Shown: in pieces, positions 30,306 to 57,854 of the stretch
Layout: the number at the start of each line of letters is the position of its first letter
Position numbering within the stretch: the first letter of the stretch is position 1
Origin: Zhengitettix transpicula
Lineage: Eukaryota > Arthropoda > Insecta > Orthoptera > Tetrigidae
Assembly: GCA_037074705.1 (NCBI GenBank)
Contig: CM073591.1
Location: forward strand, 7,811,587-7,875,586
Length of the DNA: 64,000 nt
Reading direction: 5' to 3'
The notes under the pieces: generated by a model
Databases searched by the model: none
The model's input: the letters and a program-made list of their open reading frames with translations, nothing else
What the model was told of the DNA's origin: nothing
Program-made: the position numbers and the translations under genes

Positions 30306-31891
30306 ATGCTACCTGTGGCCGCGCTGGTGCTGCTGCTGATGACGACGTGCGACGTCGCGAGGGCGCAGCAGGTGTCCGTGGAGACGGTGGTGTACGCCGA
30401 CAACTCCGCCGGGACCGCCATACAGATCCTCTTCCGCAACGACCTCAAGCTGGCGCAGAGGGCGAGCCTCTCCATGACGCTGCCCGAGTCCACCTTCAAC
30501 CTGTCGGTGTCCACGTCGCTGGCGTCCTCGGGCGAGGTCGCGGCCAAGACGGCGGCCGACGTCAGGGACGTCCGGAGGGCCTTCTCGGACGCCGTCGCCG
30601 TGGGCAAGATGGCGGTCCTCGCCGACGTCAAGTACGTCCGCCTCCTCGAGGGCTGCCGCTCGTCGTGTCCGTCGCTCACGACTGGTTTGCATTGTTTTTG
30701 CAGGAGCTCGTGCGACAAGTGCGTCGACTTGGACATCAACGTTCCGGCTCGGAATCTGCTCACCCTCAGGATCGTCTACAACGAGTCCCTCGCCACTCCC
30801 GAGGTCTGCGTCCCTGAAATGCGACTGAACCTACACAAAGGACCTGATTTCAAAGTAAGTGAACCTTCGTCGTCCACGGGTTCGGACTTGTGTGTCTCTG
30901 CCTCTCGGCGTTAAATCACCTCAATCACCTCGTTCACCATTAAAAACATCATAAGTTGGTCCTAGTACACTTTCCTTCTTCAACACACACTCAAAGTATC
31001 CACTCGACTGTAGTTTACAAGAAATCCATTATACCAAATGGAACTCCTGCTACATTGGACGAATGAAACGATCACTTAATACCCGGTATCTAGGGGATTA
31101 AATATCAAAGACAATTTCAAGTCTGAAACCTATCATCCGATTTGGCAACATGCACAGATTCTATACTAAACTATTCCTCACGATATGAAAAATTTCTACG
31201 TCATACACATCGGTCCTAATTTTTTTTTAAAAAAAGAAATTACAGATCCACTAATACACTTTTCACTCCCGGAAAATATAAACACTCAAAGGATCCACTC
31301 GACTGTAGTTTACAAAAAAAATCCAGTATCCCAACTGCAACTCCTGCTACATTGGACGAATGAAACGATCACTTAATACCCGGCATCGGGCGGGAAGTGG
31401 TGGGGGGGGGGGTTAGAGACAAATATAAAAGACAATCTCAAGTCCCCAAAACCTATCATCCGATTGGGCAAGAAGCACACAGATTCTATACTAAACTATT
31501 CCTCACGATATCAAAGATATTAGTACCAGACAAAAATATTGTTATATATATATATATTGTATCAACACCTTTACCCTCACCAAAAAAACTTTATCATACT
31601 TCATTACTTTATTTGTCGAGCATGAGCAATAAATTGTCGTCAGGGCCGTGGCTTGTTTATTTTTTTTTTCGGTTCAGCCCTCGCAGCTCCTTCGTCGAGT
31701 CCAGCTTGCAACTGCCTCTTACACTTGTTCCGTCTCGGCCCCGCTCTTTAGCTCCAACAATGCTGGCGCGTGGCCAAGAGTCGTCGACAATGACTCACAA
31801 CGAACAATGTAACCCAATCATGTTACTATATATTGTAACTTGACTGGTACGTTACAATATATATATATTGTAACGTCACAGTTTGTATATA

Positions 31892-31931
<40 letters not shown>

Positions 31932-55400: not shown

Positions 55401-57854
55401 TGAATGTCCGATTGATTACAGCTCATGAGGTCGACTTAGCGAAAGACCTCCCAGAGTTTGACATCGATATACATTGGGAGCCCGACATCATGGATCAGCA
55501 GCGGATGATGGATGCCGACAGCCGTCAGTTCGTGGTTCGCTTTCAGTTGGACCCGAGTCTTGAGCAGATGATCCTTATCACACACGACGGCTACTTCCTG
55601 CACTTCTTCTCTCCCATGGGCCTCACTCCCGTAAGGAAGCACGTTGTGTTCACCCTTGACGTCAGCGGCTCCATGAACGGGAGTAAGATACAACAGCTGA
55701 GGGAAGCATTTTCCTTTATCCTGGATGATCTTCTGCCCACAGACACATTCTCACTTATTCAGTACGAATCCTTAGTCAAGGTAGAGCTTTTTGTTCGGTT
55801 TGAGCATGACTCAAATCTCCAACATAAATACGCCAGTTTTGTGTCGTAGGTTTGGTCCGGTGGGAGTCAATGCCAGGACCTCGCCGAGACGTCCTCCACA
55901 AAGATCGCGGCAGTGAGTGACAGAGATGACGCCAAAGCCTGCGTCGCCCAAATGCGCGCCCGTGGAGGTGAGAATCTCATATCATGGTCGCCGATGTGGG
56001 GAAGTTTCACTAATTTGTTAGTTACTTTGTCGTTCGTGGTTTTCCACAGGCACCAACCTCATCGATGCTCTCGACCACAGCGTCCTGTCGGCGAAGACGC
56101 AACAAGCTCTGGGGGCCGAGGCCATCATCATCGCGCTCACCGACGGTAAACCCGACGGTGGCAGAAACAGCGCGCTGAAGCACTTCAAGGGCCGTGGCTT
56201 TAACGACGCTATGCTCTTTTGTCTTGGTCTGGGCGACGACGCTGACTTTGATTTGCTGAAGGAGTTGTCTTCCATGACGGGCGCCTTCGCCAGGAAGATC
56301 TACGTTGCCAAAGACACGGTGCCGCAGCTGCGCAACTTTTACAAGGCCATCGCCAGCGTCGTCCTCAGCAACATCAAATTCTCCTATGAGGGCGCTGCCG
56401 TCAGTAGTTATTTCCATTTTTACTAGTATCCGTTAGCCTAATTTAAGATTGGTCCAACCTTCAGTAACTATCTGGGGATGACAGCCACAGAATAGGGTTG
56501 ACAACCAGCCATATTGATGTTAAACTCCCGGCGTGGCTGAGTGGCATACGCCATGGTGGTGCAGTTTAATCCATTGCGGGTGTTGGAAAGGTTAAATTAT
56601 AGTAGTATGAGGTTATTAATTTATTTCCGTATTCAATTAAGAGTATACTCGTGTGATACTAAAGCATGCCAAAGTCTGATTACGCCGTCATATTTTTACC
56701 GTAGGACACGACGGACACGAACTTCAGGATGTTCATCAATGGTACCGACATCGTGGTGGCGGGGAAAGTCTCCCCGGGACAACAAGACTTGGTGACCAGT
56801 TTTAACAGCTCCCAGGGATCAGGTGTAGTTGGTCAGGGAAACGGCGAGATTGTGCGAGCTGACTTTGATAACGTTGAAAGACTGCGGGCGTTCCTCCAGG
56901 TGAAGCAGCAGATGAACAAGGACCGCGCCGCCGCCCTCAGAACGGCCCTCCAGGTCTGCAAAACCAAACCATTTGGTCGGTGCTGTTAAATCAGAACTGG
57001 TAGAAGTAAATATTTATCGTGACGTTGGTTTGCAGTATAAGTTCCTGACTCCACTGACTTCGCTGGTGGTGAACAAGCCCGGAGGCGCGACCGCCGTTGA
57101 CGTCACGCCCGTTATATTCAACGAAACTACTGGTAAGCTCTCACAACCTCCCTTTATTTCGTCCTCACCATTTTTAGTAACCGACCGCCTGTCCGTCTTT
57201 TACAGGAGGAACAGAGCCACCACCACCACAACCGAAACGTGAGTATTCCTCTGCCAATCTTTCGTGTAGACTCGTGCAGGAGTGACGTTGTTCATGTTCT
57301 TGTATTTCTCGCTGCAGTCTGCGACGTCTATAACGCGACGGCTCCCAGTGCCGATGTCATCAACGTGCCTTTCAACAACGGTGAGTTACGACCACCAGCG
57401 AGACACAGACTAATTATACACATGATGAATGTTGTCAACTCGTTTCAGGATACACCTTGACGGACTTGACGTGGTCCTGGAGCGACCTCAACGTGCTCAC
57501 GCAGCCCAAGGTGAGTGCACGACGGACTTTGGTCTGATCAGGACCATCCAGGGCTTTCATGTTGTGTTGTAACAGGGCGACAGCAACGCCGCGTTCGGCC
57601 CCTGCTGGACCTCGCAGCTAAAGACTGGCCACTGCAGACATCTCATCCACTGCGTGCTGCCCGTCTTCCTGAACAACCGCTCCAGGTTCGAGGCTGATCG
57701 CTGCACTCTACGCGATGGGTGAGTCCACTTGTCGGCGTCACTCAAGACCCGTCCATTCAGGAATTTTTCTTGACTTATACTCCGAACCGTCATTTACAGT
57801 CTCGTCGGCGTCTGCTGCCCTTACAGTCTGGTCCCGATGGTTCTGCCACAGTGA
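51379..57854 (+). CDS. Gene C: secreted ITIH-like protein with two VIT-vWA modules and C-terminal CLIP-like domain
   Basis: The gene has 21 coding exons and a predicted product of 1120 residues, the closest relative of gene B; exon 1 is almost identical between them. The domain order is the same: signal peptide 1-20, VIT-like module 1, vWA 1 with DTGDS and TGWSP in place of a metal site, VIT 2, vWA 2 with intact DVSGS (691-695) and TDGKP, ITIH-type YKFLTPLTSLVVNKPGG, proline/glutamine linker, and six-Cys CLIP-like tail ending GVCCP. One cysteine of module 1 (position 115 in A and B, DKC) is serine here (DKS). That may unpair a disulfide partner. Intron 1 uses a GC donor as in B. The role is inferred to be extracellular ligand binding; whether it acts as a monomer or with A and B is unknown. 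Confidence 0.85.
52347..52530. repeat. Compound (TA)n / TGTAATATTTG microsatellite in intron 2 of gene C
   Basis: TGTAATATTTG alternates with (TA)n five times, forming a repeat of about 25-45 bp. It occupies the position of the 2.4-kb LTR-bearing insertion in gene B. Confidence 0.85.
52748..53020 (+). mobile_element. Ancient diverged FB copy in intron 2 of gene C
   Basis: GGTACATGAGGGACTTCCACC and TGATAACTTCCCTTTAATAAC match the diverged copy in intron 2 of gene B, at the homologous place. Confidence 0.5.

Follow-up and report, generated by a model that had tools for sequence, protein, structure and literature searches.

The window analysed here is a stretch of 64,000 nucleotides from contig CM073591.1 (positions 7,811,587 to 7,875,586, forward strand) of the orthopteran Zhengitettix transpicula, whose genome assembly amounts to 993.6 Mb in 337 contigs, and it carries a tandem cluster of three genes of the inter-alpha-trypsin inhibitor heavy chain (ITIH) type. 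The genome has 121 matches to PF02949, an odorant receptor family characteristic of insects. Gene models were drawn up manually, guided by splice sites and by what the copies have conserved, and are predicted from DNA alone. All three genes lie on the plus strand in 21 exons apiece, with exon boundaries corresponding across the copies, and the cluster runs from the ATG of gene 1 at 30306 to the final base of the gene 3 stop codon at 57854 (Table 1). The reading frames are open, with no internal stop in any predicted product, and splice sites are GT-AG throughout, save for a GC donor at intron 1 of genes 2 and 3. Genes 2 and 3 are 89% identical, genes 1 and 2 72%, and genes 1 and 3 70%, with overall ratios of nonsynonymous to synonymous substitution (dN/dS) of 0.38, 0.62 and 0.58, respectively. 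On these models, the three genes are tandem duplicates, each encoding a predicted secreted protein of the ITIH family that ends in a CLIP domain. The earlier note had described three paralogues in which VIT-vWA-VIT-vWA is followed by a C-terminal CLIP-like module, and this description is borne out by the gene models, by Pfam for genes 1 and 2 and by homology for gene 3. Within the window, no further copies of the cluster exons were found at E ≤ 0.01, and no RNA family reached its gathering score.

The Pfam domain scan covered genes 1 and 2, the domains of gene 3 being assigned by homology, and detected two VIT and two VWA domains in each of the two genes. When the first module of gene 2 was scanned alone, VWA scored 47 bits and VIT 27.1 bits, the latter barely above the cut-off of 26.5; a search of this module for an additional known domain gave a match of its cysteine-rich stretch to Cys_rich_CWC at no better than E 0.3. 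The two vWA domains differ at what we take to be the metal site: DVSGS or DVSAS together with TDG, which we read as the metal-site motifs, are kept in the second vWA of all three proteins in a motif check, whereas the first vWA carries DTGDS and TGW in all three, a combination that does not match the motif and that we regard as a broken site. The second module of gene 2 (positions 6-540) matches human ITIH4 (PDB 9c4f) at E 1.1e-73 and human ITIH1 (PDB 6fpy) at E 1.1e-48 over most of its length, and the VIT-vWA-core arrangement is common to these vertebrate proteins and those of the window.

Table 1. Predicted genes of the cluster and their domain-bearing exons (positions in the window)
Feature	Position	Strand	Basis
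Gene 1, VIT-vWA-VIT-vWA-ITIH core-CLIP, 21 exons, 1116 aa	30306..37302	+	hand model, Pfam
Gene 1 exons 1-2, first VIT, preceded by signal peptide (by eye)	30306..30854	+	
Gene 1 exons 5-7, first vWA, broken metal site (DTGDS; TGW replacing expected TDG)	32899..33686	+	
Gene 1 exons 8-10, second VIT	33832..34378	+	Pfam
Gene 1 exons 12-14, second vWA, intact metal-site motifs (DVSAS, TDG)	34598..35567	+	
Gene 1 exons 15-16, ITIH core after vWA	36166..36586	+	family shown on gene 2
Gene 1 exon 20, CLIP Cys 1-4	37024..37166	+	
Gene 1 exon 21, CLIP adjacent Cys 5-6 and stop	37248..37302	+	
Gene 2, architecture as gene 1, 21 exons, 1120 aa	41738..50476	+	hand model, Pfam
Gene 2 exons 1-2, first VIT, preceded by signal peptide (by eye)	41738..42293	+	
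Gene 2 exons 5-7, first vWA, broken metal site	46316..47098	+	
Gene 2 exons 8-10, second VIT	47245..47791	+	Pfam
Gene 2 exons 12-14, second vWA, intact metal-site motifs (DVSGS, TDG)	48009..48990	+	
Gene 2 exons 15-16, ITIH core after vWA	49326..49754	+	PDB match
Gene 2 exon 20, CLIP Cys 1-4	50199..50341	+	
Gene 2 exon 21, CLIP Cys 5-6 and stop	50422..50476	+	
Gene 3, architecture as gene 1, 21 exons, 1120 aa, 89% identical to gene 2	51379..57854	+	homology
Gene 3 exons 1-2, first VIT, preceded by signal peptide	51379..51934	+	homology with the other two genes
Gene 3 exons 5-7, first vWA, broken metal site	53731..54513	+	
Gene 3 exons 8-10, second VIT	54659..55205	+	homology
Gene 3 exons 12-14, second vWA, intact metal-site motifs	55422..56399	+	
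Gene 3 exons 15-16, ITIH core after vWA	56705..57132	+	homology
Gene 3 exon 20, CLIP Cys 1-4	57576..57718	+	
Gene 3 exon 21, CLIP Cys 5-6 and stop	57800..57854	+	

Identity of the C-terminal tail

In all three proteins, exons 20 and 21 encode the spacing C-x9-C-x5-C-x16-C-x9-CC followed by P, just as first described, and the tails thereby conform to the definition of a CLIP domain given in PMC4676143, namely six cysteines of which the fifth and sixth are adjacent. An alignment of 28 tails, three of them from the window, shows the six cysteines to be invariant and G50 and P54 almost so, with the cysteine frame and GVCCP largely retained across hexapod orders. The disulphides of CLIP domains join cysteines 1 and 5, 2 and 4, and 3 and 6. 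A profile of 25 insect tails, from which the window was excluded, recovered genes 1-3 at 44-46 bits; the highest of 2000 shuffled tails reached 12.2 bits, and eight exons of this genome that match Pfam CLIP scored 11.7-25.3 bits. When the profile of all 28 tails was searched against the PDB, the top match was the PAP-2 clip domain 2ikd (E 0.0032), followed by an adenovirus protein (E 0.08) and the other PAP-2 clip domain (E 0.36). CLIP was also the commonest Pfam family among the 28 tails, matching 15 of them at E ≤ 10 with a best value of 0.0028, and the runner-up family matched three. Profile-profile comparison of the tails with a set of nine clip domains, of which this genome supplied seven and PAP-2 the other two, gave E 5.1e-9 and a score of 41.7, which was reached by none of 200 permutations in which the cysteine columns were fixed and the others permuted (highest 22.5). 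In addition, exon 20 is 92-95% identical between the copies as against 71-80% for intron 20, a further indication that the cysteine pattern is more than chance. Gene conversion was considered as a source of the high exon identity, and the divergence of the flanking intron speaks for constraint over a long conversion tract.

Several results weigh against a CLIP assignment. The tails of genes 1 and 2 are unmatched by Pfam CLIP (PF12032) at E ≤ 10, a single-sequence PDB search with the tail returned no clip domain, and a large protein set (48 candidates) yielded no homologue for the tail region of gene 2. Moreover, the weakest of the genome's Pfam-CLIP exons did no better against the 25-tail profile than the best shuffled tail, and an arterivirus model picks up one of the tails at E 0.0049, close to the best CLIP match. 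In a whole-protein Pfam scan of nine relatives, eight of them with the tail, CLIP was detected in two: in P0020, at E 3, and in P0025 from Blattella, at 20.6 bits for a cut-off of 20, where the better of two stretches is internal and only partial. The Pfam misses in genes 1 and 2, and the weakness of cysteine spacing by itself as evidence, would fit an unrelated cysteine-rich fold that merely resembles CLIP, an explanation that is nevertheless very improbable, since the likeness to clip domains extends well past the cysteines in the profiles, the 2ikd match and the permutations. Sequence and profile comparisons thus support a tail that is homologous to accepted clip domains and CLIP-related, and the CLIP-like character originally proposed holds up despite the Pfam miss. 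A reading of the tail as an orphan, wrongly suggested by the single-sequence searches, was overturned by inspection of the C-termini of relatives. P0025 (Blattella germanica C0J52_04780), in which CLIP-like sequence occurs twice and the order of VIT and vWA is disrupted, is probably a fused or mis-predicted gene model. Within the pre-CLIP linker of the window proteins lies a conserved lone cysteine (LCDVYN), at residue 1015 of gene 2 and at its counterparts in genes 1 and 3.

Distribution of the tail and origin of the doubled module

Relatives were taken as the best 120 of the 215 proteins that gene 2 retrieved when 7994 candidates were scored. The six-cysteine tail was detected by pattern in 44 of the 120, or in 45 when the last spacing is widened to admit the springtail protein P0040. 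Seven of the 45 aside, the tailed relatives belong, by assignments that we presume from organism names, to Orthoptera, Blattodea, Phasmatodea, Coleoptera, Hemiptera, Thysanoptera, lice, Lepidoptera, fleas and Collembola. The 75 relatives without the tail comprise 71 with vertebrate names, two named insects, one copepod and one other protein (P0091). Three named arthropod relatives are thus without it, P0009, P0019 and the copepod protein P0053, which counts against the explanation favoured below; the insect protein P0019 ends right before the tail position. None of the listed vertebrate relatives has a CLIP tail by pattern, and many list PF06668, a family that is listed for none of the 45 CLIP-tailed relatives and has no Pfam match in genes 1 and 2. 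DPHF, a motif that is rare in the listed relatives as well (5 of 120), is missing from all three cluster proteins.

The resemblance to tailed hexapod proteins covers the whole chain from ITIH body to tail. In the ITIH-like proteins P0002 (Schistocerca), P0014 (Periplaneta), P0021 (Timema) and P0035 (Pristhesancus), as in the window proteins, an ITIH body is followed by a linker and a six-cysteine tail that can be aligned over the whole domain; the second module of the window proteins is 33-38% identical to the 15 best relatives, the figure being 30-34% for the tails of these four proteins. The scanned proteins P0002 and P0014 have one VIT-vWA, whereas the window proteins add a degenerate second one in front. 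With clip-domain serine proteases and their homologues (PAP-2, 2ikd), the window proteins have the CLIP domain in common. In those proteins CLIP is N-terminal (PMC4676143) and accompanied by a protease domain; in the window it occupies the C-terminus, and no protease domain, chymotrypsin-type or of another family, was detected by Pfam in genes 1 and 2. The CLIP tail is not annotated in the names or domains of the listed relatives, and no description of such a tail in an ITIH was found in the literature searched, whose coverage mostly leaves out subscription journals and includes some papers in part. Among hexapods, the pairing of an ITIH body with a CLIP tail is common, mostly after a single VIT-vWA, but goes unannotated in the entries listed, and the two-module version alone appears special. 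The remark in the earlier note that no well-described family has this arrangement accordingly needs to be narrowed: ITIH with a CLIP tail is widespread (45 of the 120 listed), while it stands that the tail is unannotated and that the two-module form was seen only here.

The same join recurs in the genome of Z. transpicula. ITIH exons beyond the cluster lie at C3:118.44 Mb and at C7:6.27, 22.47, 25.09, 49.86 and 69.18 Mb (at least 16 of 65 matches), and at four of the six a CLIP tail follows downstream in the same orientation (C7:6.27, C7:22.47, C7:69.17 and C3:118.43 Mb; C7:49.86 is not included), the exon for cysteines 1-4 scoring 35-47 bits and the CC exon 14.8-19.0 bits at three loci and 10.3 at C7:69.17. 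At C7:25.09 Mb, no CLIP tail was found within the stretch examined. As in the cluster, a phase-2 intron separates cysteines 4 and 5 in both of the C7 genes that were fully checked, and a third gene agrees in the phase of the donor. That the last two exons form a separate gene unconnected to the ITIH genes can hardly be credited, given the ITIH-tail join in 45 of the 120 listed proteins (one of which, the assassin bug protein P0035, bears the name secreted inter-alpha trypsin inhibitor protein), the downstream tails at four other ITIH loci, and introns 14-20 of only 65-598 bases with the frame open across all of them.

Pfam-CLIP matches above the cut-off number nine in the genome, reaching up to 66 bits, with groups at C2:18.70-18.87 Mb (four matches, on the chromosome of the window) and C3:84.99-85.01 Mb (two matches). 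A protease motif, TAAHC, lies near one of eight Pfam-CLIP exons (L019); none was found at the other seven or in two 10-kb stretches, and these exons are not called proteases. Weak tail-like fragments occur at L029 (C2:199.82 Mb) and L031 (C7:66.07 Mb), CWTSSLPYGHCRHI and CWASQPW respectively, with no other ITIH exons found in the 10 kb examined; they are possibly decayed copies or chance matches.

Regarding the doubled module, introns 1 and 9 (phase 2) and introns 5 and 12 (phase 0) occupy identical alignment columns in the two modules, introns 2 and 10 (phase 0) and introns 6 and 13 (phase 1) lie at most 3 columns apart, and introns 3 and 11 (both phase 1) lie 20 columns apart, with introns 4 and 8 lacking a counterpart. 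Because several intron positions and phases are shared with the second module, the N-terminal VIT-vWA most likely arose by the copying of a VIT-vWA genomic unit. None of the 16 outside ITIH matches in this genome falls in residues 1-443 of gene 2, and direct comparison of the first vWA gave two weak matches, both at the 25.09 Mb gene, to which the second vWA is the better match. A search for double-module relatives with residues 1-450, its candidates restricted by shared words and length, yielded three weak matches (best E 0.011). Within the protein and genome comparisons made, an extra N-terminal VIT-vWA with a broken metal site was seen in this cluster only. The Bacillus rossius protein LOC134540990 X2 (P0009) resembles the window proteins in having two VIT stretches and a second, degenerate-looking vWA; its module order is reversed, with the canonical module first and the degenerate one second, it lacks a CLIP tail, and it may be a fused gene model. 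In a module tree, module 1 sits on a very long branch (6.57); the tree gives no placement of the organism and was not used as evidence. The single-module ITIH-CLIP is the common form, from which the double-module cluster is derived, and the doubled module is a local elaboration of an ITIH with a CLIP tail.

The cluster is flanked by tandem arrays with units of about 37-371 bases (1401-2098, 6309-7651, 10725-11406, 15076-16268, 60152-60861 and 61953-62816). The window also contains long CT-rich microsatellites at 22541-23162 and 27034-28369, the latter exceeding 1.3 kb, whose long open frames look spurious. Translated fragments that resemble one another, GRSGIGYLSHALPWMAGE being an example, occur repeatedly and in both orientations at approximately 366-683, 20404-20797, 21009-21410, 24863-25186, 28850-29317 and 40818-41153, which suggests a dispersed repeat.

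Possible functions of CLIP-ended ITIH proteins

Any functional proposal draws on what is reported for the two domain families. Human HC1 binds complement C3 via its metal site and inhibits C3 cleavage (PMC7170535), and ITIH4, once cleaved, inhibits MASP-1 and MASP-2 through non-covalent complexes (PMC10855846). CLIP domains, which act in protease cascades, may mediate protein-protein interactions (PMC4676143), and phenoloxidase is bound by a clip-domain homologue via a CLIP cleft (PMC7580898, citing Piao 2005). In the silkworm, ITIH accounts for 97.9% of one serum band (PMC8367846). From what CLIP domains and vertebrate ITIHs do, a link between ITIH-CLIP proteins and protease cascades may reasonably be inferred. 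The cluster proteins would circulate in haemolymph, where the second vWA, with its intact metal-site motifs, would bind a protein ligand via metal, as human HC1 binds C3, and the first vWA, having lost key metal-site residues, would act as an arm of a structural or metal-independent kind. The CLIP domain, knotted by disulphides, could then dock onto clip-domain proteases or their inactive homologues, and the docked protein would tether or restrain a melanisation or clotting cascade. This combination of a metal-dependent ligand at the second vWA with CLIP docking on the clip-protease network ranks first among the readings considered and is put forward tentatively, its probability falling somewhat short of even. 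Further points tell against it. In module 1, dN/dS stands at 0.79-0.80 for exons 1-4 and at 0.53-0.75 for exons 5-7, as against 0.22-0.53 for exons 8-14 of module 2, and such high values (0.53-0.80) imply that module 1 may be weakly constrained; furthermore, the effects reported for a planthopper ITIH are reproductive, and the word clip is absent from the accessible text of that paper (PMC8951764).

Ranked second, and rather unlikely, is a tail that is CLIP by descent yet plays no part in cascades, serving instead as a stable C-terminal cap or as a secretion or assembly module in matrix or egg-forming ITIHs. Knock-down of planthopper ITIH4 delays vitellogenesis and lowers egg output, the authors naming VIT and vWA only in the accessible text (PMC8951764), and the tail stands at the end of the ITIH chain, with PF06668, the C-terminal family of many vertebrate ITIHs, listed for none of the 45 tailed relatives. 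The action of CLIP domains elsewhere in protease cascades (PMC4676143, PMC7580898) argues the other way by analogy, and the retention of the cysteine frame and GVCCP across hexapod orders suggests a conserved surface or fold. A third reading, doubtful to a greater degree, would make these proteins protease traps like human ITIH4, in which the target cuts the linker, the VIT-vWA body holds the target and the CLIP tail is the bait for clip-type proteases. Such a trap would accord with the inhibitory complexes that ITIH4 forms after cleavage (PMC10855846), with ITIH4 being the nearest solved structure to the second module, and with a core-to-tail linker of about 50-75 residues in the window proteins, but the length and sequence of this linker vary among relatives.

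ITIH and CLIP are each known, and what appears new, within the entries and literature searched, is the widespread, unannotated ITIH-CLIP ending together with the doubled front module. As a rule, CLIP domains are regarded as components of proteases or of the inactive homologues of these enzymes. It is conceivable, if on balance unlikely, that hexapod ITIHs represent a second, non-protease home of the CLIP domain, as haemolymph proteins in which a complement-type, metal-dependent vWA is coupled to the clip-protease network, with the two-headed tandem cluster, one vWA active and the other metal-dead, as a dedicated regulator. If this were true, the CLIP-ended ITIHs of insects, which are sometimes prominent in blood, would come within reach of the melanisation and clotting cascades, in parallel with vertebrate ITIH1 and ITIH4, which touch complement, and the two-module cluster would offer a natural case in which one vWA has lost its metal site and the other has kept it.

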